Source of the DNA: Limnoraphis robusta CS-951
Lineage (GTDB): Bacteria > Cyanobacteriota > Cyanobacteriia > Cyanobacteriales > Microcoleaceae
DNA length: 15,207 bases
Assembly (NCBI RefSeq): GCF_000972705.2
Contig: NZ_LATL02000287.1
Coordinates: 1-15,207, forward strand
Reading direction: 5' to 3'
Below the pieces are notes generated by a model. That model ran no database searches. It was given only the letters and a program-made list of their open reading frames with translations, and was not told the origin of the DNA. The translations under genes and the position numbers were made by a program. Position 1 is the stretch's first letter; each line of letters opens with the position of its first letter. Shown in pieces: positions 1 to 15,207 of this stretch.

Positions 1-350
1 GAATGTTAGGTAAACATACTTTAGACGCAGGGTTCGGTCAGTTCTTCAATATACTCGCTTGGGTATGCTGGAAAAGGGGGGTTTATTTTGGCAAGGTTGA
101 CTACAGATACACCAGTCAAATCTGTCCAAATTGTGGAGTGCATACAGGCAAAAAAAGCTTGTCTGAACGTACACATAAATGCCCCGAATGCCAGTACGAA
201 ATCAACCGTGATGTTGCAGCAGCAAAAGTGATTTGTAACCGAGGTGTCACTGCGGTTGGGCAGATCGTAGAAGAAATTGACTGTGTAGGCGTACTGTCGG
301 GGGTTGGTAACAGCCTAGATAAGTGCCGCAAAAGCAGTAAACCCAAATAG
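1..350 (+). CDS. tnpB: RNA-guided endonuclease TnpB, C-terminal part (5' end cut by window edge)
   Basis: About 115 residues of the C-terminus are visible; full-length TnpB proteins are usually about 400 residues, and the frame is open to the window edge, so this is a partial gene rather than a short one. The segment contains the zinc ribbon CPNC (residues 41-44 from the ATG at 3) and CPEC (60-63). The NRDVAAA motif follows, whose Asp (residue 70) is the third RuvC catalytic acidic residue. The preceding LGKHTLDAGFGQF block is also typical of the family. TnpB is an omega-RNA-guided DNA nuclease that cuts the donor or target site and so helps keep the IS in place. No frameshift is seen in the visible part. 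The stop TAG at 348-350 is followed directly by the right-end structure, as expected when the omega RNA overlaps the gene's end. Whether the N-terminal half is intact cannot be judged. Confidence 0.9.
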   Translation, partial: MLGKHTLDAGFGQFFNILAWVCWKRGVYFGKVDYRYTSQICPNCGVHTGKKSLSERTHKCPECQYEINRDVAAAKVICNRGVTAVGQIVEEIDCVGVLSGVGNSLDKCRKSSKPK

Positions 351-404
351 CGATGTTTGGGAATCCCTCTCTATAATCTCTGATTTAGAGAGGGAGGATG
401 TCAA
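1..404 (+). mobile_element. Right end of an IS200/IS605-family element (TnpB type), left part outside window
   Basis: The segment holds the 3' part of a tnpB gene followed by a strong right-end hairpin. The arms CCCTCTCTA (365-373) and TAGAGAGGG (386-394) pair and continue through AATC/GATT (375-378/382-385), with one bulged T and a TCT loop. Seven bases after the hairpin comes TCAA (401-404), the usual right-end cleavage tetranucleotide of IS608-like elements, so I place the element end at 404. A subterminal hairpin near the cleavage site and no terminal inverted repeats are the family hallmark. The 3' part of tnpB plus this end is where the family's omega (guide) RNA normally lies. No tnpA is visible. 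The left end lies outside the window. Confidence 0.75.
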
Positions 405-534
405 GTCAAAATATGAGGATATAGCGTTTATATTATTAAATCAAAAGTGCAAGCGAGACGCTAGCTGGAGGGTATTCGGTTAATTGATTCACTTTATTTG
501 TTAATGTCAACTTCCCCAAAAGGCTAATTTTTTT

Positions 535-1842
535 ATGGCTGCTACCCTTGCTCTGATTGCTCACGATCGCAAAAAAGAAGAACTGGTTGAATTCATTTTA
601 CGATATCAAGGCATTTTTTCTCGTTATCACTTGATAGCCACGGCAACAACAGGACAACGAATTCAACAAGGAACAAACCTGACGGTTGAACCCCTGCTCT
701 CCGGGCCACAAGGAGGAGATCTTCAAATTGCAGCACAAGTCGCTGAAGGAAAAATATTAGCCGTTATTTTCCTGATAGATCCGCTTTTTTCCCAACCCCA
801 TGAACCCGATATTCAAGCGTTACAACGCATTTGTGCGGTTCATAATGTTCCCCTTGCGATTAATAGTGCTACGGCTGAAGCTATTGTTGAAAAACTCCGT
901 CAGTCACGAATTGCTCATCTAATATTTAACCCGGTTTCCGGAAGTGGAAATTCGACTCAAGAGTTAGCTTTAATTTGCAAATTACTTGAACCTCACCTGC
1001 ACTTACAGGTTCATCAAACTACCCCAGAAGAAAGTGCTGAAGAACTGACTCTAAAAGCCATTGCAACTGAACCCGATCTGATTATTGCCAGTGGTGGTGA
1101 TGGTACAATTTCGGCGGTAGCGGGAGTGTTAATTGGCACACAAATCCCCTTGGGTGTGATTCCGAGAGGAACCGCAAATGCCTTTGCAGTCGCTTTAGGA
1201 ATTCCCGTCGCCTTGACTCCGATTAGAAGTGCTTGTCAAGTGATTATTAATGGAAATACTCGGGTTGTTGATGCGGCTTACTGCAACCAAAAACCGATGA
1301 TTTTACTCGCCGGAATTGGCTATGAAGCCGAAACGATTGACAAAGCGACTCGAGAAATGAAAGAACAATGGGGGGCTTTAGCCTATTTAATTGCGGGTTG
1401 GCAACAACTGAATGAGCAAGAATTGTTTTTAACAGAAATTGAAGTTAATAACGAGGTTTATCAAATGAATTCAGCCGCGATTACGATTGCGAATGCTGCA
1501 CCCCCGACTTCGGTGTTAGCCCAGGGAAAAGGAGAAGTTATTTTTGATGATCATCTCTTAGATGTTACGATTGCAACGGTTAATGTTAATCCCCAACAAC
1601 TGGTTAATAATCCTAAATTACGAGCGGTTGCCACGATGATTAATATGCTGGGTTCGGCTTTAGTTAAAACAAATCCCGATCATCCTGATATTTATCATTT
1701 TAGAACTCAACGAATCAAGCTGACTGCAAATCCGCCTCAAAAAGTGGTTGTTGATGGGGAAGTTATCGGTACAACTCCTGTGGAAATTGAATGTATTCCA
1801 GATGGGTTAATGGTGTTTGTGCCTGGAAATAATATTGGTTAA
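535..1842 (+). CDS. mgsA: Methylglyoxal synthase fused to a YegS/diacylglycerol kinase-like lipid kinase
   Basis: The protein has 435 residues in two domains. Residues 1-120 match methylglyoxal synthase, which converts dihydroxyacetone phosphate to methylglyoxal and phosphate. The N-terminal ALIAHD (His10, Asp11), GPQGGD with Asp62, and PHEPD with His89 and Asp92 line up with the phosphate-binding and catalytic residues of E. coli MgsA (Asp71, His98, Asp101). Residues 127-435 match the DAGK/YegS/sphingosine kinase fold: FNPVSG (129-134), the nucleotide-binding GGDGT (187-191), PRGTANAFA (210-218), and a C-terminal VDGE (about 406-409). The lipid substrate cannot be read from sequence. The fusion form occurs in other cyanobacteria, to my knowledge. 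The ATG has AAGG about 11 bases upstream. The gene is monocistronic, starts 130 bp after the IS end, and overlaps the convergent hydrolase gene by 36 bp. It is cytosolic, perhaps membrane-associated through the kinase half. Confidence 0.92.
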   Translation: MAATLALIAHDRKKEELVEFILRYQGIFSRYHLIATATTGQRIQQGTNLTVEPLLSGPQGGDLQIAAQVAEGKILAVIFLIDPLFSQPHEPDIQALQRICAVHNVPLAINSATAEAIVEKLRQSRIAHLIFNPVSGSGNSTQELALICKLLEPHLHLQVHQTTPEESAEELTLKAIATEPDLIIASGGDGTISAVAGVLIGTQIPLGVIPRGTANAFAVALGIPVALTPIRSACQVIINGNTRVVDAAYCNQKPMILLAGIGYEAETIDKATREMKEQWGALAYLIAGWQQLNEQELFLTEIEVNNEVYQMNSAAITIANAAPPTSVLAQGKGEVIFDDHLLDVTIATVNVNPQQLVNNPKLRAVATMINMLGSALVKTNPDHPDIYHFRTQRIKLTANPPQKVVVDGEVIGTTPVEIECIPDGLMVFVPGNNIG

Positions 1843-2925
1843 CGGCGATTCAAATTCAACTGAATAGCTAGAATTTGACAAGCGATCGCACCACTGCAAC
1901 ATTCGATTCCAAGCCCACCAACGATCCGGATCTTCAGCTTGAAGTTGAGAAGATTTACTGCTAATATAACCCACATGACCGCCATATTGGGTTAATCTCA
2001 AATCAATCGCTGAATTTTCGCGGCTAGCGGCTTGCAAATCGGGGATAATCGTCGGGTCAAATAAAGGATCATCCGCAGCATAAAGGATTAACGTGGGTTT
2101 CTGCAATTGAGGCAACAAAGCCAGCGCACTACTGGCGTTATAGTAGTCTTCAACCGATGAAAAACCCAGTCGTTCGATCACCAGTTCGTGATCAAATCCC
2201 CAAATACTATTCGCTCGTTTAATCGCTTCAGGATCAATCGCTTCAGGATGCGCTGTATAGATGCGTCTGGCTAACTTTTTCAGTTCAGAGGCGATCGCTC
2301 TTTCTAGATATTTTCCCCAGCGATGTTGTACCAAATAGGACAGAGAACGGCTAGAATCAAGACTCGGACAAATCACCGCTCCCCCAGCAAAGTCGGACTC
2401 GCTGAACTCCAGGTCATTTCCCCAGTCTGAAACCGTTTGAGCCGCTTTCACGCCCCACAGCGCCAACTGTCCACCCAGAGAATATCCCGTAAACCAAAAC
2501 GGAGGCGGACAGCCTAAAGCTTTCGCATGGGCGGCGATGCGAACAAAATCTTCTCCCTCATACAGTCCATCTGAGGTTAGCGTCGGAGAAAGTTCTGCGG
2601 TTTTGCCATGCGCCCGCCAATCAAACAATACAACGCTGTAGCCTTGAGCGTAGGCTTTACGCCCCAACAGTCTGAGAAACCATTGATTATCTAAATCTCC
2701 GGTAATGCCGTAGGTTCCGACAATTGTACCGCGTGAATGTTCGGCAATGGCATATTTACCAAAAATCGGAACATTTTCCGCACCGATAAAAATTTGGTCT
2801 TGATAAGGAGGTTCTGGGTGAGGGGTTGTTTGTTCCCAAGTTTTCTTTGCTCTCAACGCCGCATAAACCGTCATGGTTAAGCCATTTTTCAGCAAAAAGG
2901 GAGGAGTATACACAAGTTGATCCAT
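1807..2925 (-). CDS. Alpha/beta fold hydrolase, YheT-like
   Basis: The product has 372 residues and an alpha/beta hydrolase core of the YheT (AB-hydrolase-4) type. Visible landmarks are the oxyanion-region motif GTYGITGDLDN (70-80), VVLFDWRAHGKT (98-109), and the nucleophile elbow GYSLGG with Ser149. The ADDPLFD motif carries the probable catalytic Asp (285 or 286), and GGHVGY carries His317. The complete Ser-Asp-His triad suggests an active esterase or lipase-like enzyme; the substrate is unknown. There is no signal peptide or membrane segment, so it is probably cytosolic. The gene starts 33 bp after the TetR-family gene on the same strand, so the two are probably co-transcribed. Its last 36 bp overlap the end of the convergent mgsA-type gene. 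The ATG at 2925 has no strong ribosome-binding site, which would fit translation linked to the upstream gene. Confidence 0.9.
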   Translation of the reverse strand: MDQLVYTPPFLLKNGLTMTVYAALRAKKTWEQTTPHPEPPYQDQIFIGAENVPIFGKYAIAEHSRGTIVGTYGITGDLDNQWFLRLLGRKAYAQGYSVVLFDWRAHGKTAELSPTLTSDGLYEGEDFVRIAAHAKALGCPPPFWFTGYSLGGQLALWGVKAAQTVSDWGNDLEFSESDFAGGAVICPSLDSSRSLSYLVQHRWGKYLERAIASELKKLARRIYTAHPEAIDPEAIKRANSIWGFDHELVIERLGFSSVEDYYNASSALALLPQLQKPTLILYAADDPLFDPTIIPDLQAASRENSAIDLRLTQYGGHVGYISSKSSQLQAEDPDRWWAWNRMLQWCDRLSNSSYSVEFESPLTNIISRHKHH

Positions 2926-2958
2926 GATCGAGAGCAGAGAATAAGTGATTACCCTTAA

Positions 2959-3603
2959 TTAGATTAACAATTTGTTGTTTTCAGGATCGGTTTGGCGTCC
3001 AGCTTTAATGATCGTATCCACAAGGCTATCAATTAACCGTTCGGAGTCCATCGGCATCAGTCGATGTCCGTGCAGCACTTTCTGAATGAGAACGAAGTGA
3101 ACTAAAGCCCCGACAAAAATACGGGCGGTGGCTTCAGGATCGTTAATTTCCAGTTCTGAACAATCTCTAAAATACTGCGTTAGAATCACCGTTGAAGGTT
3201 GAATCAATTCCTGCACAAAGACTTCTGCCAAATCGGGTCGTTTGCCGGACTCCGCGATAATTAAACGGGCAAAACAAAGCTGTCCATCCTCATCAGCATT
3301 TTGTAAAATTCTCTCCGCGAGATCTCGGAGAACGCTTTCTGGTTCACCTTTGAGGGGTTTTGACCAAACCAGGCGAAATTTCTCGGAAGCAATGCGCTTG
3401 ACAAGGGCGGTAAACAAGCCATCTTTATCGGAAAAATGACTGTAAAGGGTTTGTTTGGAGACTCCGGCTGATTTTGCTATTCTATCCATACTGGTGCAAG
3501 CATAGCCATGTGCCAAAAATTCGGGTATGGCACCTTCAAGGATTTGTTCGGCTTTTTCTGCATATCCGGGACGCAAATATTCGGAATTTATTATTTTAGG
3601 CAT
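2959..3603 (-). CDS. TetR/AcrR family transcriptional regulator
   Basis: With the ATG start the protein has 214 residues. The N-terminal helix-turn-helix domain spans roughly residues 10-66, with the recognition region SMDRIAKSAGVSKQTLYSHF (38-57) followed by DKDGLF, the standard TetR signature. The remaining helical region (AESGKRPDLAEVF and onward) resembles the ligand-binding and dimerisation domain of AefR-like regulators; the ligand is unknown. I chose the ATG at 3603 because AGGAG lies 11 bases upstream; a TTG at 3612 would leave only two bases between AGGAG and the start. The gene lies 78 bp after the STAND/WD40 gene and 33 bp before the hydrolase, so it probably represses itself and the hydrolase. 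Short inverted repeats in its leader are candidate operators. Confidence 0.92.
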   Translation of the reverse strand: MPKIINSEYLRPGYAEKAEQILEGAIPEFLAHGYACTSMDRIAKSAGVSKQTLYSHFSDKDGLFTALVKRIASEKFRLVWSKPLKGEPESVLRDLAERILQNADEDGQLCFARLIIAESGKRPDLAEVFVQELIQPSTVILTQYFRDCSELEINDPEATARIFVGALVHFVLIQKVLHGHRLMPMDSERLIDSLVDTIIKAGRQTDPENNKLLI

Positions 3604-3650
3604 TGTTATCAATACTCCTGTTGTGTTGTGTCTATTATCTTCCTGGCTCC

Positions 3651-3680
3651 CTGTTAAAAAACAGCACCCAACTGTACAGT
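3651..3680. promoter_or_regulatory. Inverted repeats upstream of the TetR gene, candidate operator
   Basis: Two short symmetric sequences lie between the STAND/WD40 stop and the TetR start. CTGTT-AAAA-AACAG occupies 3651-3664, and the perfect ten-base palindrome ACTGTACAGT occupies 3671-3680. TetR proteins bind such dyads in their own promoters, so one of these may be the operator. The link is inferred from position only; no clear -35/-10 pair is recognisable around them. The first dyad could instead be a weak terminator stem for the upstream gene. Confidence 0.3.
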
Positions 3681-3681
3681 C

Positions 3682-6600
3682 TCAAGGTAACATTACTGAC
3701 TGTTCACTGTTTCTTATCCCCTGACATAGAGGAGTACGGTTTTGTTCATCTGAAGTATCAGTCTGGAGATAATCATTTAACCACAGACAACCCGCACGAA
3801 TTTGATAACCTAACTGAAAACCTTGCATATTCCACAAAATCGTTGTTCCATCTTCTCGAGCGATCGCCAAAAGTTTACCATCGGGATCGAAATAGACACT
3901 ATTAAGAAACACATCTTGATCAAGGGTGTAAAAAGCCTCAATTTCCCTCTGAGCGGAACAGTTTCCATCTACAGGCCAAAGCTGTTGACGATCAAGCTGC
4001 CATAGTCGAACTTTTTTATCATCACTCGCACTCGCAATCAGAGTCCCATTAGGATGAAAATCAACACCGCGTACAATGGCTTGATGTTTCAAAGGACAAG
4101 ATGCTCCCCGGCTGGGACTCCACAGGACAACCTGGCGATCAACTGCAATCGCTAATAGTCCTTCTTTGGGGGTATAACTAATCTCATTAATGGTTTGATT
4201 GGGGTAAGACAAAATCCTGCGCGACTCCCAACCTGCTTTTTGGGAACTCCACAATAGGATCGCAGATCCCGTAGAATCTGAAGTTGCCGTCGCCATCTGA
4301 TTTCCGATCGCATTGAAACGAATACTCACAACCGGATCATCAAGCTTCAAAGTGTCAATTAAGCTGCCGTCGGGTTGCCAAAGCTTCACGGTGCGATCTT
4401 CACTTCCAGAAGCGATCATTCCAGTCGGACTAAACTCTACAGCATTCACGGGTTTCTGATGTCCGCTTAAGGTTTGAACCAACTCGCCTTTGAGGTTCCA
4501 GAGTTTAACGGTAGGTTGTTGTTGACTCACTGTCGCCAGGGTTTCTCCGTCTGGACTCAAACTTACCCAACGCACTTGTTTTTGATTGTTCAACACCAAC
4601 GGTTCATCGGTTGAGTTTTTCAACGGTTCCGCACTGTCTGTCTTCCACAGTCTAACGGTTTGATCGTCGCTAGCGGTGGCAATGATTCCATTCTGACTCC
4701 AACTAATATCATTAACAGCGTGAGAATGTCCTTGCAAGATTTGATCGAGGGGATTTCTGTTGCGATCCCAGAGTTTTACGGTATTGTCTGCACTGGCGGA
4801 AGCGATCATCTGACTATCGGGACTAAAACTCACCGTCCAGACATCATTTTTGTGTCCGGTAAACGTTTGCAAAATCGCGCCATTTTTATTCCACAGTTTC
4901 ACCGTGCTATCGCGACTACTACTGGCAATGGTCTGACCATCGGGGCTAAAACTCACGCCTAAAACATCACTGTTGTGTCCTTTGAGGGTTTCAACGGTAT
5001 TGGTTTTTAGGTTCCACAGTCTAACGGTGCGATCGCCGCTTGCAGAAGCCAAAATCTGACCATTCGGGCTAAAACTGACTTCATAGACCCCAATGCAGTC
5101 TTCTGTCTGTCTGAGGGACTCACAATGCCCTCTGAGGGTTTTTAGGAAGGTGCCGTCTGGCTTCCAAAGTTTCACGGTTGGATCTGAATTCCCACCGGAA
5201 GCGAGGGTTTGACCGTCGGGGCTAAACTTTACATCTAAAACTCCACCTTGATGGGCGTTGAGGGTTTTAATCAGGGTTTCCTGTTCAACATCCCAAAGCT
5301 TGATCGTACTATCACCACTCCCGGAAGCCAAAACCCGACCATCGGGACTGAAACTAACACTCGTCACCACATCCTGATGACCTTTGAAGGTTTTTAACAG
5401 TTGTCCGTCTCGACTCCAGAGTTTGACTGTCCTATCGATACTGGCTGAGGCGATCTGATTTCCATCGGGACTAAAACTCACGCTAATCACGTTATCCTCA
5501 TGGGAAACAGGTTGTGAATTGAGAGACGGATCGATCAGATCTTGAATAAATCTGCCATCTTTACCCCAGAGTTTGATCACTTTTTCGTTTCCGGCGGTAG
5601 CGATGATTTGACCATCGGGACTGTAGCTTGCGGCTAAAATACTGTCTTCTTGTTCGAGTCGATTGCGCTCGTGTAAACTATTATCAAATAACTTTCGCAG
5701 TCCTTTAGCAATCTCGTCTTTTTGTTCTTTGGACGCTTGGGTTTGTTGAATACTTTCACCAATCACCAAAGTCGCTCGTAAAATGCCAATTTGATCGTTT
5801 TGATCGCCTACAATTAAAGACTCTTGAGCCGCTTGAATGGCTTCAATTCTTGCTCGGGCTTCTTGTTTTCTTTGAGCCATTGCAAATAGACCAAATCCGG
5901 CAAAGACAAATCCGGCTAAAACCGCCATAATTCGTTCAAGTTGGCGGCTACGTTCTTCTGCTGTGCTACGACGTTCGGTTTCTTTGGCGAGGCGAGAATA
6001 GACATCTACATCTTCTTTGAGTGCTTTATTTTTTTGTTGCAGTTGCTCAAATTCTGCATCTCGATCTAAGCGATTTTTCTGACGAATAAAATCAGCCAGA
6101 TAATCGTGAACCAGTTGATAAAATTCTGCCCCATCTATGATTTCTCGGGAGACTAAGCCAGATTTTGCCAGAATATACAGAATTAAATCCAGTTGATATT
6201 CTACGGCTTCTTTTCCGAGTTTTCCTTTGAATTCTTCTGTTAATTCTGAACGGGTTTTTAGCGGCCGAGTGTTGTTTTCATCGGTGAGTAAAAACAGGAT
6301 TAAATTCGCGGTTTGTTGATGTTCTGGGCCACAATCTTGAATGACTTCTTCGAGAAAGCGCTCGACTAATTTTTGATGGGGGCCTTGACGTTTATAGTCG
6401 GCTAAAGTAGTAATATCTTCGGCTTGAAGTTGGGCGCCGACGACTTGTAATTCTATCGGACGAACTTCTCCTAATTCCCGCGAGAGGTCATTAACTAAGG
6501 CTTGAATTAGGGCATCTTCTAGGAAAAAATGGGAGCGATCTGTTAAACTTTTGATGACGTTGTAAGCTTCTGTCGGGGTCAAGTTGCCCAAATAAAATAG

Positions 6601-8778
6601 AATGTCTTTATTTAAAATATCGTTGTTAACAATTTCAAAATCAATTAATCGGGTTCCTTCTAATAAATGATGTAAGTAGTCCTCTCGAACGGAGATCATC
6701 ACTTTTACATAGGGTAAATTGAGACAATCTCTTAAGACTTCAAAAAAAAGGCGGCGAGTGCTGAGTCTTCTATGGGCGAAGAAAAATTCTTCAAAGTGAT
6801 CAAAAATTAAGATCGTGATTTGATTATTGTTCGCGTTTTCTTTTAATTTGAGTAAAATATTTTCAATCGCTTCTTGATGGGTTTGTTCTGTCTGGCGGGT
6901 TGATTTTTCTGCTTCTTCACGGTTTTCTATCGTTTCCTCTTCTTCTAAAAAGGCTTGAGTTCGATCAGCGTATAATTTATTTTCAAGTTCTTTTGCATAG
7001 GAGTTGTAAGTTCTCAGCAAGATCGGAACAATTTGACGGGCTTCCACACTCAAATCTTGCAAAGCCGGAACTAAACCCGCTCGAATAATCGAACTTTTAC
7101 CGACTCCAGACTGACCATAAATCACCGTTAATTTGTGTTGAGTGCTTCCGATGCGTTGGAGTAAACGATTAATTGCTTCTTCACGACCAGAGGCTTTGAT
7201 TTCATCGGTAACAGTGGCTTCAGTTGACACCGTTCCTAACATCGGATCAACCGCTTGTTCTCGGGGTTCGAGTCGTCCGGCGCCAATAAAAGCCGTATAG
7301 CCAAATGCACTCGATTTTGTACGATGTTCTTTTTTAATATCAAAGGCTTCTCGATATTGACCGAGTTCAAAATAGAGTCGGCGCAACATTCCTAAGATTT
7401 GCAGATAAAATCTAGGATTGTATTTAGGAGCGGTTTCTTTGTAGGCAATTTCTAACTTTTCTATGGCCTCCCAAGGTTGGCTTAACTGTTCTAAGGCTTG
7501 AGCCAGTATCCAGTAATATAAACCTTGATTTTTATTGGTGAGCGGATCATCAATAATTTCCTGGGGATTTTGATTCAGTATTTCTAAGGCTATTGAGGCG
7601 AATTCTTTGGTATTTTGCCAGTCAGATTTATGCCGATAATATTCCGCAAAAAAGCCGTAATCTTGAGCGAGTTGTAGCGGTTGAGAGTTTTGCTGTTGAT
7701 GTAATTTTCTGGATTTTTGAGCGAGTTTAAACAAAGCGTCCCAATCTTCCAGTTCCCGCAGAATTTCACCCAGTTGATTAATAAACTTTGCGACTAAATC
7801 GGGTCGTTTTGCCGCTTCAAAATAGTCTAAACATTGCTCAAAATACATTCGGGCTTCTAGCCATTCTTTGTGACTACTGTGCCTGAGATGTTGTTCGGCT
7901 TGGTAAGCTGAACATAACCCTAGATGATACAAAATAATACCCTGCCAAATGAGCGGATTTACGGCAGGGGAAGAATGAACCAATGGATATTCAGCCTCAA
8001 AATTCGATGAACGAGATGAGAGTTTTGTACTCTCTTGTTGCCAAAAGTTCCAACTGAGGTTATAGTTTTCTAGCGCTTCTGAGATGTTTTGATGAGCGTA
8101 GTAATGTCGAGCCAGAACGAACCTTAGACTAGCCGTTAAAGCGGGTGTTAAAGTAATTTTTCGGTTTGTTAAATCTTGATAAGCTAGTTGCAGTTCCGAG
8201 GCGCAATGTTCACCCAAAATTTTGCTATTGGAAACAAATGAACACCCCCCGAGTTCTAAAATGGTGGTGAAGAGTTGCTGAGATTTGCTCGAAAGAAAGT
8301 GAATTAATTCGCTAGAACTTTGTTGAAAAACATAAGTCGTCGCGTAGCCAGTAAAATCCGGCGCTCGTCGATTTAACTTTTTCCACAGTTGATCATTAAT
8401 CCACAGCAATACCGGAAAGGGAAAGTTTAAAAAGGCTTCTCTCGCTAAGTTAGTCGCCGCTAAGACTTCATCTAGCGTTTCCACCCTCTCTAAACCAAAC
8501 ACCATGACAACAGCAGGATGTTCTTCTGAGAGTTCTGTTTCTAGGGTACGATAGAGGTTATCAATAGAAGCACTCAGATGAATTTCTCGAATGGGTAAAG
8601 CTGATTTTTTGTGGAGTTGCTTAACAATTGTTTTCCGCAGACTAATATAGTTACAGCGAACCAACACCAATGAGAATTCTCCCTCTGACAGTTGTAAGGT
8701 TCGAGAGAGAGTATCAAGCTGGCTTTGATTGTGGGTTACTGTATCATCTTGGGGATATACATTCATTGGGCTGGTCAA
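3682..8778 (-). CDS. Giant TPR / STAND-type ATPase / WD40 repeat protein with one membrane segment
   Basis: The protein has 1698 residues. Residues 30-150 form an NTPase-like module without a Walker A, with the Walker-B-like VVMVFGLE (90-97) and PVLLWI (122-127). Residues 200-490 are helical TPR-like repeats. Residues 500-900 are a novel-STAND (nSTAND1-like) NTPase: Walker A GQSGVGKSS (555-563), Walker B ILIFDHFEE (656-664), and a sensor-like SVRED (696-700). An acidic charged helix (605-650) is inserted between the two Walker motifs. A coiled coil (905-950) leads to one hydrophobic segment (about 949-967). Fourteen WD40 repeats follow (1041-1650; LW-type ends from KLW 1069-1071 to ILW 1647-1649), enough for two seven-bladed propellers. 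The tail GCLWLNDYLQT (1663-1673) is typical of cyanobacterial members. Family role: ATP-switched signalling scaffold, with WD40 as sensor or partner surface; the partner here is unknown. The TTG start is preferred because GGAG lies six bases upstream; the ATG at 8766 would leave 18. Confidence 0.93.
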   Translation of the reverse strand: MTSPMNVYPQDDTVTHNQSQLDTLSRTLQLSEGEFSLVLVRCNYISLRKTIVKQLHKKSALPIREIHLSASIDNLYRTLETELSEEHPAVVMVFGLERVETLDEVLAATNLAREAFLNFPFPVLLWINDQLWKKLNRRAPDFTGYATTYVFQQSSSELIHFLSSKSQQLFTTILELGGCSFVSNSKILGEHCASELQLAYQDLTNRKITLTPALTASLRFVLARHYYAHQNISEALENYNLSWNFWQQESTKLSSRSSNFEAEYPLVHSSPAVNPLIWQGIILYHLGLCSAYQAEQHLRHSSHKEWLEARMYFEQCLDYFEAAKRPDLVAKFINQLGEILRELEDWDALFKLAQKSRKLHQQQNSQPLQLAQDYGFFAEYYRHKSDWQNTKEFASIALEILNQNPQEIIDDPLTNKNQGLYYWILAQALEQLSQPWEAIEKLEIAYKETAPKYNPRFYLQILGMLRRLYFELGQYREAFDIKKEHRTKSSAFGYTAFIGAGRLEPREQAVDPMLGTVSTEATVTDEIKASGREEAINRLLQRIGSTQHKLTVIYGQSGVGKSSIIRAGLVPALQDLSVEARQIVPILLRTYNSYAKELENKLYADRTQAFLEEEETIENREEAEKSTRQTEQTHQEAIENILLKLKENANNNQITILIFDHFEEFFFAHRRLSTRRLFFEVLRDCLNLPYVKVMISVREDYLHHLLEGTRLIDFEIVNNDILNKDILFYLGNLTPTEAYNVIKSLTDRSHFFLEDALIQALVNDLSRELGEVRPIELQVVGAQLQAEDITTLADYKRQGPHQKLVERFLEEVIQDCGPEHQQTANLILFLLTDENNTRPLKTRSELTEEFKGKLGKEAVEYQLDLILYILAKSGLVSREIIDGAEFYQLVHDYLADFIRQKNRLDRDAEFEQLQQKNKALKEDVDVYSRLAKETERRSTAEERSRQLERIMAVLAGFVFAGFGLFAMAQRKQEARARIEAIQAAQESLIVGDQNDQIGILRATLVIGESIQQTQASKEQKDEIAKGLRKLFDNSLHERNRLEQEDSILAASYSPDGQIIATAGNEKVIKLWGKDGRFIQDLIDPSLNSQPVSHEDNVISVSFSPDGNQIASASIDRTVKLWSRDGQLLKTFKGHQDVVTSVSFSPDGRVLASGSGDSTIKLWDVEQETLIKTLNAHQGGVLDVKFSPDGQTLASGGNSDPTVKLWKPDGTFLKTLRGHCESLRQTEDCIGVYEVSFSPNGQILASASGDRTVRLWNLKTNTVETLKGHNSDVLGVSFSPDGQTIASSSRDSTVKLWNKNGAILQTFTGHKNDVWTVSFSPDSQMIASASADNTVKLWDRNRNPLDQILQGHSHAVNDISWSQNGIIATASDDQTVRLWKTDSAEPLKNSTDEPLVLNNQKQVRWVSLSPDGETLATVSQQQPTVKLWNLKGELVQTLSGHQKPVNAVEFSPTGMIASGSEDRTVKLWQPDGSLIDTLKLDDPVVSIRFNAIGNQMATATSDSTGSAILLWSSQKAGWESRRILSYPNQTINEISYTPKEGLLAIAVDRQVVLWSPSRGASCPLKHQAIVRGVDFHPNGTLIASASDDKKVRLWQLDRQQLWPVDGNCSAQREIEAFYTLDQDVFLNSVYFDPDGKLLAIAREDGTTILWNMQGFQLGYQIRAGCLWLNDYLQTDTSDEQNRTPLCQGIRNSEQSVMLP

Positions 8779-9134
8779 TTTTTTCTCCGATACGCCTAGA
8801 TTAGCTTGATCTCAGATTGATGAATATAAAAATATACTTTAGGATAGCACTGCTTTATAGAGACTCGGAAAAGCCATAAAATATCTTTACTTGTTTGCAT
8901 CGGGAACTTTTTAGGCGATCGCATCGTCTACTCCGCTATTACCCATACCATATATCACATATGTTAAAGTATAGGGGATGAAAGTAGTCAGATCGGACAA
9001 AATCATAGCAGTCTGTGGTCAATTCTTCAATCTCGGGAAAATGCTTTCAGTCGAATCAGATCCAATGAAAGCCTACCCAATGAAAGCCAATCGATCGAAC
9101 AATAAACTCCTCACACGATGAGTTTTTGCTGTTT
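8779..9134. other. Intergenic region upstream of the STAND/WD40 gene
   Basis: No protein-coding gene is supported here. The stretch contains one HIP1 octamer (8915-8922) and a 12-base direct repeat CCAATGAAAGCC (9062-9073 and 9077-9088). A seven-base inverted repeat GCTTTCA/TGAAAGC (9043-9049/9066-9072) and the Yfr1-like motif described separately lie in its right part. It must hold the promoter of the minus-strand STAND/WD40 gene, but no convincing -35/-10 pair is visible. Confidence 0.6.
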
Positions 9135-9135
9135 T
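9043..9135 (+). ncRNA. Possible Yfr1-like small RNA
   Basis: The plus strand carries ACTCCTCACAC at 9106-9116, identical to the ultraconserved unpaired core of the cyanobacterial regulatory RNA Yfr1. Upstream is a possible seven-base-pair stem (9043-9049/9066-9072). T-runs follow the core at 9123-9127 and 9132-9136. Against the assignment, the 3' hairpin is weak: the nearest stem is TGCT/AGCA (9127-9130/9137-9140). The core can also be partly sequestered by AAACTC/GAGTTT pairing (9104-9109/9120-9125), whereas in known Yfr1 it is single-stranded between two stems. No clear promoter is seen. The boundaries are nominal. Confidence 0.28.
9104..9127 (+). terminator. Hairpin AAACTC/GAGTTT followed by T-run
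   Basis: AAACTC (9104-9109) pairs with GAGTTT (9120-9125), with two more inner pairs (TC/GA) after a mismatch and an ACAC loop. T-rich sequence follows on the plus strand. It would end a plus-strand transcript. In the other direction it lies just after the stop of the minus-strand small gene, where its T-tract is poorer. The stem is AT-rich and only moderately stable, and this reading competes with the Yfr1-like interpretation. Confidence 0.3.
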
Positions 9136-9368
9136 TAGCATTTCCCGTAGAGTTTACAGGGTGTACGATCATAAAGAATCTCAGGGGAGAGTAACTTCTC
9201 ATCCTCAAAAGAAGTAGAATCTTGGATCTCCATTTGCAAAACGCCATCCGGTTGGGAGATCGGCGGTTTGATTTTCCCGCTATCTGCCAAGCTAGAATTT
9301 CCACTGAGCATCAGTAGCATTGGAAGTGCTATCATTAGATCTAACCTTTTGGGTGTCATCGGAACCAT
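9135..9368 (-). CDS. Small predicted secreted protein of unknown function
   Basis: The protein has 77 residues. The N-terminus has the layout of a Sec signal peptide: Lys7-Arg8, then the hydrophobic core LDLMIALPMLLML (9-21), then SLA before Asp29 as a probable cleavage site. The mature part of about 49 residues is polar (GKIKPPISQPDG, then an acidic stretch) and ends in CKLYGKC, with cysteines 71 and 77. I recognise no family. The start is the ATG at 9368, with GAGGT seven bases upstream; the in-frame GTG at 9377 lies inside that ribosome-binding site and is less likely. It stands alone between the STAND/WD40 promoter region and a long non-coding stretch. The signal peptide and well-placed ribosome-binding site argue that it is real despite its length. 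Location would be periplasmic or extracellular. Confidence 0.6.
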   Translation of the reverse strand: MVPMTPKRLDLMIALPMLLMLSGNSSLADSGKIKPPISQPDGVLQMEIQDSTSFEDEKLLSPEILYDRTPCKLYGKC

Positions 9369-9681
9369 TTTGCTCACCTCGTTTGTTATTTGAATTTAGG
9401 GTTCATCAGGGTTTGATTGTTCTGCGTTCTTCTCTACTTTATTCTTCTCAATCTCCCAACTTTAGCCGGAATTTTAGGGAGATTATCCCCCTGTATCCGT
9501 TGTTTGTCAGCGTTTTAGCGATTGACGGATTGAGTTGTGATGTTTGCAAGTCAATCCCTTCTCACCTGTTTAAGAAGTGACGAGTGACAAGCCAAGAAAC
9601 GGGAAACCCACTCTGATCAAGCTGTTAACAGATCATCAATTTAAAGAGTAGGTTCTTCTTCAGCTTGAGGGAACGAGAGGG

Positions 9682-9705
9682 AAAAAAAATCATCCGTAGG
9701 GATGA
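9682..9705 (-). terminator. Intrinsic terminator-like hairpin on the minus strand, no assigned gene
   Basis: Read on the minus strand, TCATCC-CTAC-GGATGA (9705 to 9690) forms a six-base-pair stem with a four-base loop, followed at once by eight T (9689 to 9682). It is enclosed by a perfect seven-base stem CTTGAGG/CCTCAAG (9664-9670 and 9709-9715). No minus-strand gene ends here; pgm has its own terminator nearly 400 bp upstream. Confidence 0.45.
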
Positions 9706-9844
9706 AAGCCTCAAGACAACTTTTCACGAAAATATACTGACAGATAGAACAGGATTATTGTTCCAATCATCTAGTCGGAAAATAGGGCTTGAGACGGCAC
9801 AAAATTCGGGTTAAGTCGAGAACAGCAAAGGATCAGTTTTGGGA

Positions 9845-9953
9845 ATATAGCAGAAGTCAGGAGACACCGAGACAGGAGACAGAATTGAAACCTTTATCAT
9901 AAAAGGATTTGACAGAAAAACACTGTCCTAATCAAAGGCTTCGACTGCTATAT
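9845..9953. repeat. MITE-like element with 9-bp terminal inverted repeats
   Basis: ATATAGCAG (9845-9853) and CTGCTATAT (9945-9953) are perfect inverted repeats bounding a 109-bp segment with no open frame. Inside are GGAGACA repeats (near 9860 and 9874), a hairpin CCTTTAT/ATAAAAGG (9891-9906) and GACAG/CTGTC. The form fits a small non-autonomous element. No clear target-site duplication is seen, so insertion is not proven. Confidence 0.35.
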
Positions 9954-10074
9954 AACCCAATGGTTTAACTGTTCGTTGCTATAGAGAAGGTCTACTTCAT
10001 CAATCTACAACGGTATTGACACCAAAATCCGGAACATTTATCACCTTTACTTAATTTAGGGTGTGGGGTGTTCC

Positions 10075-10107
10075 AAAAACCCGATTTCTCCAAGAAACCG
10101 GGTTTCT
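10075..10107 (-). terminator. Intrinsic terminator of pgm, made from a dispersed GAAACCGGGTTTC-type repeat
   Basis: AAACCCG (10077-10083) pairs with CGGGTTT (10099-10105). After one mismatch the stem continues with TTTCT/AGAAA (10085-10089/10093-10097) around a CCA loop. On the minus strand it is followed by TTTTT (10079 to 10075) and begins about 11 bases after the pgm stop. This CCGGGTTTCTT-type palindrome is, from general knowledge, a frequent dispersed repeat in filamentous cyanobacteria, here serving as a terminator. Confidence 0.7.
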
Positions 10108-10116
10108 CTGTATACT

Positions 10117-11808
<1,692 letters not shown>

Positions 11809-11837
11809 TCAAGTTTTCTATCTGGGGAGTGATCGGC

Positions 11838-11855
11838 AACAGGCGCCTGTTTTTT
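11838..11855. promoter_or_regulatory. Perfect 14-bp palindrome with T-run between pgm and the GHKL gene
   Basis: AACAGGCGCCTGTT (11838-11851) is a perfect palindrome followed by TTTT (11852-11855). The surroundings GGGG-AGTGATCGG and CCGACA-CCCC are also partly complementary. It lies between two divergent genes. It could be an operator, or a terminator-like hairpin blocking plus-strand transcription into the GHKL gene. It could also be a remnant of a dispersed intergenic repeat. Function cannot be decided from one copy. Confidence 0.3.
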
Positions 11856-11938
11856 CCCGACACCCCATCTCCTTTAAGTTTGAAGACTTTCGAGGCTCGA
11901 TTTTTGTCTAAATCCCACTAAGTTAAACAAAGCTTTGG

Positions 11939-11944
11939 TATGAT
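11939..11944 (+). promoter_or_regulatory. Possible -10 box for the GHKL gene
   Basis: TATGAT (11939-11944) matches five of six bases of the TATAAT consensus and lies about 80 bases before the preferred ATG. No good -35 box is found at normal spacing, so this is weak. Confidence 0.25.
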
Positions 11945-12026
11945 GTAACATTTAAGATGTCTGTTGACTGACTCACTTGATAATATTTTTGTTAATTTTG
12001 TCCTTTATCAAATTTATCTAAAACAT

Positions 12027-14039
12027 ATGCACTATCAAACTTTTGCATCATTTGATCCTCTTGAAGCAAACACTAAAGCTGATACAGAAGTTCAACTAAA
12101 AGCTCGTAAAAATGCGATAAAAGGTATTTTAACATCCTATGTTGGTTGGTATGATCCATTTTCTGAAACGATTCAAAATGCTATGGATGCTGTAGAAAAA
12201 CGCCTCGATAACAATGAGTTATTTTATACTCCAAAAATTTGGATAACAATTAATTTAAAAGACAATGTACTGATGGTAACAGATAATGGAATCGGCTTGG
12301 ATGAAGAAAAATTCAAATTATTTCTTACACCTTTCTTTTCTTTCAAATCTCCAAAACATCGCGGACATAAAGGCGTAGGAGCAACTTACCTAGCATATGG
12401 ATTTAATTATATACAACTATGTACCAAAACTTCTAGTTTTACTGCTGTAGGGAAAATGGAAAATGCAAGAGATTGGGTAGATGATGATGATGTTTCTTTA
12501 TCCAGACCCCAAGTAATCCAGGATAAAGAAGGAGCATTAGATAATTATTTTAATAAAGAAATTTTAGAGACTGATGAAACAGGTGTTTCTATTTGTATAA
12601 AATTTGATAAAAAGACCTTAACTTGGAAGGGAATGACAGAAGCTAGTGCATGGTTGAAAGTTTTACGACTGAAAACAGGGCTAGGAGCAATTAACCCGAC
12701 TGAAAACTTAGAGGTTTTTCTGAATGTAATTGATAAAAATGACAGATTAACTCAAGAATCAATCAAGAGTCCTACTTATCTTTTTATCGAGAAAACCTCG
12801 CCACAATCAAAATCTATTTGCTATAAAGATGTACAAGAGAAACGAGAAGAGTTAGCAAGGAAACATAAAGATACTACTGAATTACCTAAATCATTTCGGA
12901 ATAAGTTAGTAATCTATGGTGCATGGGATTTTGATTCTTCTAATTCTCATGCCGATCTCAAACTGAAACTTGATCAAGAAGAAAAAGAGTTATTAGATAA
13001 ACATACTCCATATGTTTATTGTGCATATGTTTGGTCAGTCAATTATTGGAACAATTTTCATAAAGAATTAAATTATAGAGTAGGTGACAAAGTTTTATCT
13101 GGAGGTATTCAATTAGCCGCTAATAATATGCCACAAGGAGAAACCGTCTCAATTCCACTGGGACAAAATATTAGTCGTCAAAATAACGCTTTTGTTTTAA
13201 TACATTTTGAGAATTATACTCCTGATTTGGGTAGAAAAAATTATGAAAAACAATTGATAGAGATATCGCAAAAAATTGCTTCACGATTAGTAGATATTTT
13301 ATTTAAGTACCATATATGCTTAAAGCCTACTGGTACTGGAAAAATTAAAGAGTCACTACTTCAAGAAAAACAAATTAGTGATTGGAAAAAAGAGATGGAA
13401 AAACACGAAAAGCAAAATCCTTTAAATTTGATCAATGAAAACTTTTTTATTCCAACGAAAAAAATTTCCATTACCTCGATACCTTCTCGAGAGCAGGATG
13501 TAATTGCGTTATTTAATCAAATGATTGCAGGAGGAGTCATTCGTGGAATTCAAATTATGGCAACTAATGAACGTTTTAATTATGATGGACTTTATAGAAT
13601 CATTCTTGATAACAATGATCTTCATATCTATGATAAAGAAAAAAATCCTTTGGGAATTCAAGAGGAAACCTTAGACGCTTATAATGATGATGATTTATTA
13701 CCCTTTACATCAGAACCAAAAGTTTTAGAATATAAATATTCACTAGATGGTTTAGTTGAAGATATAGGTACGGGAACAAAAAAATCAAAAGATATTAATT
13801 TAGTTGTAGTTTGGGAAACTGGGGAAGAATGGAGAAAAAATTATCGAATTACAACAACCCTGCATGATGATTACCTAAATGATCGTCATTATCATGGTGT
13901 AACTCATAAAATGTCTAATTTTGATACATCTGGAGATCTTATGGACATAATTGTTTTAGAAGAATTAATTGAATATCTTAATGATCCTCAATCTACCCAG
14001 GAGAAACAGTTAAAAAAATACGAAGATTATGAAGACTAA
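12027..14039 (+). CDS. GHKL (HSP90/MORC-like) ATPase with C-terminal putative PD-(D/E)XK nuclease domain
   Basis: With the ATG at 12027 the protein has 670 residues. The N-terminal region has all three GHKL ATP-site motifs: the N-box SETIQNAMDA (Glu47, Asn51, Asp54), the DNGIG loop (86-90) and the GHKGVG lid loop (113-118). This is the ATP-clamp fold of MutL, HSP90 and MORC. Residues about 488-650 look like a PD-(D/E)XK nuclease: a helix starting REQDVIALF (Glu489), then YDG (Asp520), then LEYK (Glu568, Lys570), then a strand INLVVVWE. That is my motif reading, not a database hit. A TTG at 11964 would add 21 hydrophobic residues; neither start has a good ribosome-binding site. The gene is alone on its strand and AT-rich (17 G/C of 60 at 13741-13800), which suggests transfer. 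Prokaryotic MORC-like ATPases are known beside restriction-modification genes, so a DNA-defence role is plausible; no partner gene is present. Confidence 0.88.
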   Translation: MHYQTFASFDPLEANTKADTEVQLKARKNAIKGILTSYVGWYDPFSETIQNAMDAVEKRLDNNELFYTPKIWITINLKDNVLMVTDNGIGLDEEKFKLFLTPFFSFKSPKHRGHKGVGATYLAYGFNYIQLCTKTSSFTAVGKMENARDWVDDDDVSLSRPQVIQDKEGALDNYFNKEILETDETGVSICIKFDKKTLTWKGMTEASAWLKVLRLKTGLGAINPTENLEVFLNVIDKNDRLTQESIKSPTYLFIEKTSPQSKSICYKDVQEKREELARKHKDTTELPKSFRNKLVIYGAWDFDSSNSHADLKLKLDQEEKELLDKHTPYVYCAYVWSVNYWNNFHKELNYRVGDKVLSGGIQLAANNMPQGETVSIPLGQNISRQNNAFVLIHFENYTPDLGRKNYEKQLIEISQKIASRLVDILFKYHICLKPTGTGKIKESLLQEKQISDWKKEMEKHEKQNPLNLINENFFIPTKKISITSIPSREQDVIALFNQMIAGGVIRGIQIMATNERFNYDGLYRIILDNNDLHIYDKEKNPLGIQEETLDAYNDDDLLPFTSEPKVLEYKYSLDGLVEDIGTGTKKSKDINLVVVWETGEEWRKNYRITTTLHDDYLNDRHYHGVTHKMSNFDTSGDLMDIIVLEELIEYLNDPQSTQEKQLKKYEDYED

Positions 14040-14205
14040 ATAATAAATTTTTTGAAGACGATTTTGAGTGGCAACTTTCCACCTTAGTCCAGCCGAAAGT
14101 GACGCGCTCCATTAAGAATGAGTCTCACAGTGCTAGGAGTCGCAATGCGATAGGTTTGCTACATAACATTAAACTATGGTTTTTTCCTGAATAATCTAAC
14201 TGAAT

Positions 14206-14796
14206 TTATTGTTTCATTTGACGTCTTAATTGTTCTAATTCGTCTTCGGTTTCCCAACGTCTAAATTCTTGTTCTAACGGGTCTGCTGCGGCGCTAAAAC
14301 TGTTATAATTAGGAGTCTGAGCCCATGCTTTTGTTTCCCATTGTTGTTGCTGTTGAGTGGCTTTGGCTTGGGTGCGTGCTTTAACGGCTTCTGCGGCTTT
14401 AACGCTCACTTCTTGGCGACGCAGTTTAATTTGCTGATAAAGTTCTTTCGACTGTTCGATGCGCTGTTTAACGCCTTGCATTTGTCCCCAACGTTGGTTT
14501 CCCTGACGTAATAATACCGCTTCTCGTTCTCTAGCGGGTTGGGCGAGATCTTCTCGGTTAGCGGCTTCAGCTTTGGCGATGCGTTCATGCCAACGTTGAA
14601 TATCTTGAGCAATGGTGAGAATTTGGTCTTGTAAACTTTTTTCCTGACGTTGAAGATCGGCAATTAAACGTAATGTATCTTCTTGTTGTTCGCGAAGTTG
14701 TTCTTCTAAAGCTTGCAATTCTAGATGAGGATTAGACCGTAAAAATTCTTCTAATCTTGTTTCTAAAAAGCGACTAAAATCATCAAATAAACCCAT
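14206..14796 (-). CDS. Cyanobacterial conserved coiled-coil protein (TIGR04376-like)
   Basis: The protein has 196 residues and is almost entirely helical and charged. It begins MGLFDDFSRFLETRLEEFLR, then carries a long coiled coil rich in Gln, Glu and Arg (about 25-150), including LRLIADLQRQEKSLQDQI, REREAVLLRQGNQRWGQM and a Gln-rich stretch near 147-152. A short linker leads to a conserved-looking C-terminal tail EFRRWETEDELEQLRRQM. From memory this matches a family restricted to cyanobacteria (TIGR04376) with superficial likeness to PspA/Vipp1-type coiled coils; its function is unknown to me. There is no signal peptide or membrane segment. The ATG at 14796 has only a weak AAAG upstream. The gene is convergent with the GHKL gene, and a 143-bp repeat array begins 46 bp upstream of its start, so its promoter lies in or next to the array. 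Confidence 0.85.
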   Translation of the reverse strand: MGLFDDFSRFLETRLEEFLRSNPHLELQALEEQLREQQEDTLRLIADLQRQEKSLQDQILTIAQDIQRWHERIAKAEAANREDLAQPAREREAVLLRQGNQRWGQMQGVKQRIEQSKELYQQIKLRRQEVSVKAAEAVKARTQAKATQQQQQWETKAWAQTPNYNSFSAAADPLEQEFRRWETEDELEQLRRQMKQ

Positions 14797-14842
14797 AACT
14801 TTAATTTGAATTTCTACTTTTAAATATAGCGCTAATGTTGGG

Positions 14843-15207
14843 TTTCGTTCCTCAACTAACCTACTATTTTAGCCCTAATGTTGGGTTTCGTTCCTCAACC
14901 CAACCTACAGTTGTGATACCGTATTCGATAGCGTAGGTTGGGTTAAACGTGACTTGCAACCCAACAAAGCCTTGCCTATTTTGGATTTCGTTCCTCAACT
15001 AACCTACTATTTTAGCCCTAATGTTGGGTTTCGTTCCTCAACCCAACCTACAGTTGTGATACCGTATTCGATAGCGTAGGTTGGGTTAAACGTGACTTGC
15101 AACCCAACAAAGCCTTGCCTCTTTTGGATTTCGTTCCTCAACTAACCTACTATTTTAGCCCTAATGTTGGGTTTCGTTCCTCAACCCAACCTACAGTTGT
15201 GATACCG
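14843..15207. repeat. Tandem array of a 143-bp palindromic repeat, running off the window
   Basis: The sequence repeats with a period of exactly 143 bp: the same TTGGGTTTCG starts at 14881, 15024 and 15167, and TTTCGTTCCTC starts at 14843 and 14986. About 2.5 units are visible and copies are nearly identical (for example A14978 versus C15121). Each unit holds nested inverted repeats: AACCCAACCTAC/GTAGGTTGGGTT (14897-14908/14933-14944), TGTTGGGTT/AACCCAACA (14879-14887/14958-14966), and a small hairpin TTGGGTT/AACCCAA. The core TGTTGGGTTTCGTTCCTCAAC is a dispersed palindromic repeat seen widely in cyanobacteria. No open frame is supported. Confidence 0.9.

Follow-up and report, generated by a model that had tools for sequence, protein, structure and literature searches.

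A clamp and a nuclease in one defence gene are a known kind, with a tested example since 2025. That example, VcSduA of Vibrio cholerae, is a one-gene phage defence with a GHKL ATPase and a PD-(D/E)XK nuclease, and mutation of either abolishes protection; the authors who described it assign it to Shedu type I-D and see a connection with the paraMORC3 proteins of PMC2292703 (PMC12137116). The five families of paraMORC proteins join GHKL and S5 domains and are sporadic and laterally mobile; paraMORC3 adds a restriction endonuclease (RE)-fold domain with the residues E-D-ExK, and a subset of it stands alone (PMC2292703). Here we describe a gene of similar anatomy from the cyanobacterium Limnoraphis robusta CS-951, found in contig NZ_LATL02000287.1, positions 1 to 15,207 (the whole of this 15,207-nucleotide stretch is called the window). 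Its product, P0001 (Table 1), is probably an effector against viruses (or plasmids) that works as a single, mobile gene.

The ATPase and the C-terminal domain

The open reading frame (ORF) at 12027-14039 is intact, and the N-termini of homologues place its start at the ATG at 12027, not at the upstream TTG at 11964. Conservation was followed in four alignments: A1 (n=58), A2 (n=93, overlapping A1), A4 (n=18, taking in one archaeal fragment at 23% identity) and A5 (13 C-terminal pieces). A preliminary description of the window had reported a full set of GHKL ATP-site motifs. All three are indeed there, E47xxxN51xxD54A, D86NGIG90 and G113HKGVG118, in agreement with the superfamily patterns ExxxNxxD[AS], DxGxG and GxKGxG, and Pfam HATPase_c matches P0001 at 27.6 bits, above its cut-off of 26.4. 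HATPase_c is matched by all 58 aligned A1 members at E <= 1, and the ten ATP-motif positions checked are identical in every one of them, except D86 (57/58). In the structure comparison, residues 19-435 align across the GHKL and middle regions of Hsp90, MORC3, TopoVI and GyrB, as expected for a Bergerat fold with an S5 domain directly behind it, the module of MORC, paraMORC and TopoVIB. Sequence and models show intact ATPase motifs, an N-terminal fold like that of Hsp90, MORC and TopoVIB and, in a confidently modelled C-terminal domain, invariant nuclease-type residues.

These residues, E489, D520 and E568-Y-K570, are present together with an INLVVVWE stretch, as the D...ExK pattern noticed earlier had suggested. 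E489, D520, E568 and K570 are identical in 58/58 (A1), 93/93 (A2), 18/18 (A4) and 13/13 (A5) sequences, at identities down to 38% (23% for the archaeal fragment). Conservation of the D/E/K residues among homologues, on which the earlier reading depended, therefore held, and because the four positions are identical across all four alignments, the E..D..ExK pattern of PD-(D/E)XK enzymes is, at the sequence level, not a product of chance. A further invariant motif, R620..H623-G..T626-H627 (R..HG.TH; window 13884-13907), lies in the same domain and could belong to the active site.

As for the restriction-endonuclease fold that had been proposed, the model of residues 441-670 is confident (pLDDT 92.4) and has its elements in the expected order, but the fold matches were all weak: EndoMS/NucS, an endonuclease and the top match, then EcoT38I, MspJI, LmuAB, McrBC, Cap4 and Ecl18kI. 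Among viral structures the domain had no match at E <= 0.001, and 3 of the 50 rows shown named restriction endonucleases (E 2.7-3.9). The domain profile found no sequence match among PDB chains at E <= 10; whole P0001 found a single one, at E 0.73. Given weak fold matches on one side and invariant residues on the other, we consider it very unlikely that the C-terminal domain is no nuclease and that P0001 is an ATP-driven, Hsp90-like chaperone or regulator carried by mobile elements. The nuclease part has no family name in Pfam, NCBIfam or PADLOC. A search for stand-alone copies of it gave 259 proteins at E <= 0.001; a Pfam domain occurs in none of the 120 listed, most of which, on short contigs, are probably fragments (15 of the 120 lie on contigs > 20 kb).

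The most likely mode of action is an ATP-dependent dimer clamp whose nuclease domain cuts DNA on an invader-specific cue. ATP binding would dimerise the GHKL domains, the GHKL and S5 domains would close as a clamp on DNA, and a feature of invading DNA would license the PD-(D/E)XK domain (E489, D520, E568, K570) to cut. Dimeric clamp, DNA cleavage, ATP gating, cue, phage protection and sparing of self are what we infer; the requirement of VcSduA for both its ATPase and its nuclease residues supports this clamp-nuclease reading by analogy (PMC12137116).

Comparison with Shedu, paraMORC and other systems

VcSduA and P0001 have in common the single gene, the N-terminal GHKL ATPase, a clamp-like middle domain and a C-terminal domain that is a PD-(D/E)XK nuclease in VcSduA and PD-(D/E)XK-like in P0001. 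They differ in that the nuclease of VcSduA is DUF4263/SduA_C, whereas the C-terminal domain of P0001 has no detectable profile relation to SduA_C and carries the invariant R..HG.TH; moreover, the activity of VcSduA was tested, whereas P0001 is known from its sequence and a model (PMC12137116). In the searches VcSduA was represented by a stand-in, a GHKL-SduA_C family from a cyanobacterial genome, whose own match to PF14082 falls short of the cut-off (L028) and of whose 120 listed homologues 27 carry PF14082 by hand count. No similarity was found by BLASTP between P0001 and the GHKL-SduA_C protein, and between the profiles of the two families it was confined to the GHKL region (probability 77.7, E 1.9e-5). 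Aligned with hhalign, the C-terminal domain reached a probability of 0.1-1.3 against the SduA_C stand-in, versus 94.4 (E 9e-8) in the positive control, in which classic SduA_C was aligned with the C-terminal domain of the GHKL-SduA_C family. PF14082 did not match P0001, and for the A1 members (n=58), which matched 29 families, it was missing from the 25 listed. With a working control and no SduA_C/DUF4263 signature, membership in Shedu was rejected at the sequence level: P0001 is like VcSduA by anatomy, and by its signature domain it is not a Shedu member.

Related PD-(D/E)XK domains often have no detectable sequence similarity, and the comparison with SduA_C was one of sequences; the two nuclease domains may still descend from a remote common ancestor. 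P0001 might be a Shedu type I-D or paraMORC3 protein, similar to VcSduA and merely diverged, in which case the family is already known; this overlaps with a role in defence. Such a descent would agree with the profile relation of the GHKL parts, and with the order of parts (GHKL, S5, E-D-ExK) and the standalone habit shared with paraMORC3 and VcSduA (PMC2292703 and PMC12137116). It accords poorly with the failed BLASTP, the low C-terminal profile scores and the lack of PF14082, and we judge it improbable.

With the paraMORC proteins P0001 shares GHKL and S5 domains, sporadic occurrence and lateral mobility; compared by description, architecture and residues match paraMORC3, while the RE fold of P0001 draws on weak matches (PMC2292703, also for the next two motifs). 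The ExxxH of paraMORC2 was not seen among the conserved A1 columns, by reading, and the HxH of paraMORC5 occurs in P0001 (H621-Y-H623) with H621 not conserved.

In PADLOC, seven of eight family members examined matched TmtA, presumably of the system named Tiamat, within residues 14-118, and P0001 itself had no TmtA match. The TmtA models are 1370-1782 long and nothing outside the ATP site matched in the eight members, so that a shared GHKL ATP site was retained and full-length homology to Tiamat rejected. Other PADLOC matches were few and weak, and were treated as chance. Among them were matches of 4/58 A1 members to a model for a type II restriction enzyme (best E 9.6e-4), which none of the A5 pieces matched, and single weak matches of those pieces to MTase_II, Csx1 and Csm3. 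EndoMS/NucS, the weak structural match of the C-terminal domain, was not matched by the domain profile in sequence, and it is not known to have a GHKL ATPase.

Two further sources bear on GHKL proteins. HATPase is listed among predicted-system domains in a figure legend of the DefensePredictor paper, which does not allow a comparison with P0001 (PMC13092281), and CapK is a GHKL kinase of unrelated architecture (PMC13373217). In the literature searched, of which titles, starts of abstracts and passages were covered, none was recognised as the P0001 family. Neither the nuclease family nor the P0001 lineage appears to have a name in the papers and libraries covered.

Distribution, probable gain at the window site and neighbourhoods

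The homologue search scored 7998 proteins, of which at least 1058 reached E <= 0.001. The best 120 of them are mostly full length, with 46-53% identity; the tail beyond may take in other GHKL proteins. Source names among these 120 include Planktothrix, Paenibacillus, Desulfotomaculum, Larkinella, Caldilineaceae and Nitrospirales, and the annotations read ATP-binding protein, hypothetical protein, HSP90-like ATPase and, once, Lrp-family regulator. At E <= 1e-30 the gene was found in 2 of 386 cyanobacterial genomes, one being G001; it is rare and sporadic in this phylum. A truncated copy in Crocosphaera (L002, 4591-5763) has 390 residues and lacks the nuclease domain; the gene that follows looks HicB-like by eye. 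Relatives also occur on two Rhizobium plasmids and one Halobacterium plasmid, and on nine IMG/VR contigs. The phage-record collection had no match for P0001 or for the protein of the prophage locus L015, and the DNA of the L015 gene had none in 20,395 E. coli records.

In a tree of 25 sequences phylum labels clustered above chance (3 changes versus a shuffled mean of 7.8). Two groupings had support 100/100, that of the Rhizobium plasmid copy with two prophage copies and that of one copy from Chloroflexota with one from Bacteroidota. The cyanobacterial copies came together with support 83/71, one of them on a long branch.

At the window site, presence and absence could be compared with one draft genome, G457, the closest relative. 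There the pgm and TIGR04376 genes adjoin, the latter 90% identical in DNA to that of the window, with 91 bp between the homology ends at 11842 and 14205. Elsewhere in the available sequence of G457 no copy was found, the best match reaching 31.6 bits and spanning just residues 35-113. A single gene with short flanks is thus present in the window and absent in G457. Adjacency of pgm and TIGR04376 was found only in this relative; in 10 more distant genomes pgm was not within the stretch read around TIGR04376. Because the gene is rare, gain at this site is the likelier course, rather than loss. Near both borders (11849-11860 and 14179-14190) there is a short, T-rich direct repeat of 12 nt, its copies differing at one position, which may be due to chance or may mark an insertion; exact repeats at the borders of the absent segment reach 9 nt at most. 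Carriage by a transposon was rejected, as the stretch from 11843 to 14204 contains no ORF for a transposase; a TnpB fragment at 3-350 is far off. The gene is AT-rich, as previously claimed, its GC fraction being 0.312 against 0.443 in pgm and 0.421 in TIGR04376, and in all 10 loci compared, of 15 bearing the gene, it was below the rest of the locus (locus GC 0.37 to 0.64).

A survey of neighbourhoods for defence islands, proposed earlier, placed relatives at L011, L015, L072 and L003 in antiviral cargo or defence contexts and left the window site outside this set. Mobility of the viral and plasmid loci is partly a matter of selection, because they were drawn from collections of mobile elements; cargo positions and defence neighbours are not. 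L011 is a P2-like prophage by Pfam (GPA replication gene, cytosine methylase, integrase), with its repressor and integrase best matched in Vibrio phages; one such record names the repressor CI. Its order is CI-repressor relative, the gene directly after, NsnC, NsnB, NsnA (PADLOC E 1e-67, 7e-104 and 2e-115), cytosine methylase and integrase. We take NsnC, NsnB and NsnA to be the Menshen system. The interval between cI and integrase of K139-like, P2-related prophages in Vibrionaceae is an antiviral hotspot (PMC9122126), and the L011 gene sits in the corresponding interval, K139 kinship of L011 being our assumption.

Related to each other in gene and flanks, the prophages L015 and L072 carry the gene between gpS/gpR tail genes and baseplate genes on the opposite strand, in a phage region that matches 217 phage records at 60-80% identity. 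Four phage records examined at the gpV-gpS site differ in content: one is empty (L103), one has a retron-type reverse transcriptase and a regulator, both of these being Yersinia phages, and two have a lone hypothetical gene. The Peduoviridae gpV-gpS gap thus appears as a variable cargo site, occupied at L102 2746-4166, L104 2772-3836 and L105 2775-3836, the lone hypothetical gene lying on the opposite strand; this site is not named in the available passages of PMC9122126. Pfam matches verified the presence of phage genes in L009, L011, L013, L015, L072 and L073, and not at L012 and L014; L010 has an integrase with a D5-type primase. On the Rhizobium plasmid L003, within 8 kb on one side of the gene, are a cytosine methylase, PDC-M26A-like and DUF2357-PDDEXK_7 proteins, Vsr and UvrD, and on the other side an IS6 transposase. 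In Microcoleus (L001) the gene is preceded by an AAA gene and one weakly matching DUF4276, below cut-off. A divergent cyanobacterial copy (G247, L071) has XisH before it (7642-8109) and DUF559 after it (10787-11191), and the Halobacterium plasmid copy (L004, 9986-11977), split into two frames, adjoins a cytosine methylase and two proteins matching PADLOC PDC-M33A.

Relatives thus occupy antiviral cargo sites of prophages in some loci, and because of this P0001 is probably an unnamed one-gene antiviral. The cytosine methylases near the gene in L003, L004 and L011, three divergent loci, allow that some branches are linked to methylation. P0001 might accordingly be the restriction or repair part of a methylation-linked system (MutL/Vsr-like, or an accessory of restriction-modification), its cytosine methylase perhaps unlinked, as Vsr and UvrD in L003 and EndoMS as top structural match would suggest. 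Yet, of the 15 loci that bear the gene, a cytosine methylase was recognised in only 3, whether from annotation, from Pfam or by eye, in the part of the genes scanned. In line with the preliminary description, no methylase of any kind was recognised among the eight main ORFs of the window, the set scanned there. Presence in 2/386 genomes is also unlike housekeeping repair, and we hold this alternative to be unlikely.

The rest of the window and significance

Table 1. Features of the gene and its surroundings in the window.
Feature	Position	Strand	Evidence
Complete gene, 670 aa, GHKL-S5-PD-(D/E)XK-like protein (P0001)	12027..14039	+	ORF; full-length relatives among best 120 listed matches
GHKL (Bergerat-fold) ATPase domain, residues 1-190 (border set by us)	12027..12596	+	Pfam HATPase_c, motif conservation, structure
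S5/transducer-like middle domain, residues 191-435	12597..13331	+	R351, R384, R403, K404 invariant in A1
C-terminal PD-(D/E)XK-like domain, residues 441-670	13347..14036	+	model, weak nuclease matches, conservation
Left flank: alpha-D-glucose phosphate-specific phosphoglucomutase (pgm)	10117..11781	-	NCBIfam NF005737
Right flank: TIGR04376 family protein	14206..14796	-	NCBIfam
Segment absent from relative G457	11843..14204		blastn homology ends 11842, resumes 14205

Elsewhere in the window, a 1698-residue nSTAND1 NTPase with a WD40 propeller (3682-8778, minus strand) has the architecture of STAND-type conflict proteins and a PADLOC match through its repeat region, HEAT-ARM_XIII. A methylglyoxal synthase domain is fused before a diacylglycerol/lipid kinase (535-1842, plus strand). 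The fragment at 3-350 (plus strand), on the edge of the window, is what the stretch holds of an RNA-guided nuclease of the TnpB family, its C-terminal portion, and long direct repeats of GTTGGGTTTCGTTCCTCAACCCAACCTAC type were seen by eye at about 14860-15207.

The preliminary description was correct in substance, and its reading of the protein is supported. A bolder proposal, which we put forward tentatively and with less than even confidence, is that P0001 belongs to a second lineage of ATP-gated clamp nucleases, independent of Shedu type I-D, in which GHKL-S5 is joined to an undescribed PD-(D/E)XK family with R..HG.TH. It would sense a state of DNA (an end, supercoil or replication intermediate) and not a sequence or methyl mark, and would serve bacteria and archaea as a restriction enzyme that needs one gene and no methylase.

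Clamps of the MORC and MutL type are central to genome defence and repair, and how such a clamp chooses its DNA is poorly known. The P0001 family, in which one chain carries both the clamp and a nuclease-type domain and which has full-length relatives in several phyla, offers a compact test case and would supply a new detection model for the annotation of defence genes. If it evolved apart from VcSduA, the joining of a GHKL clamp to a PD-(D/E)XK nuclease would be a recurrent solution.
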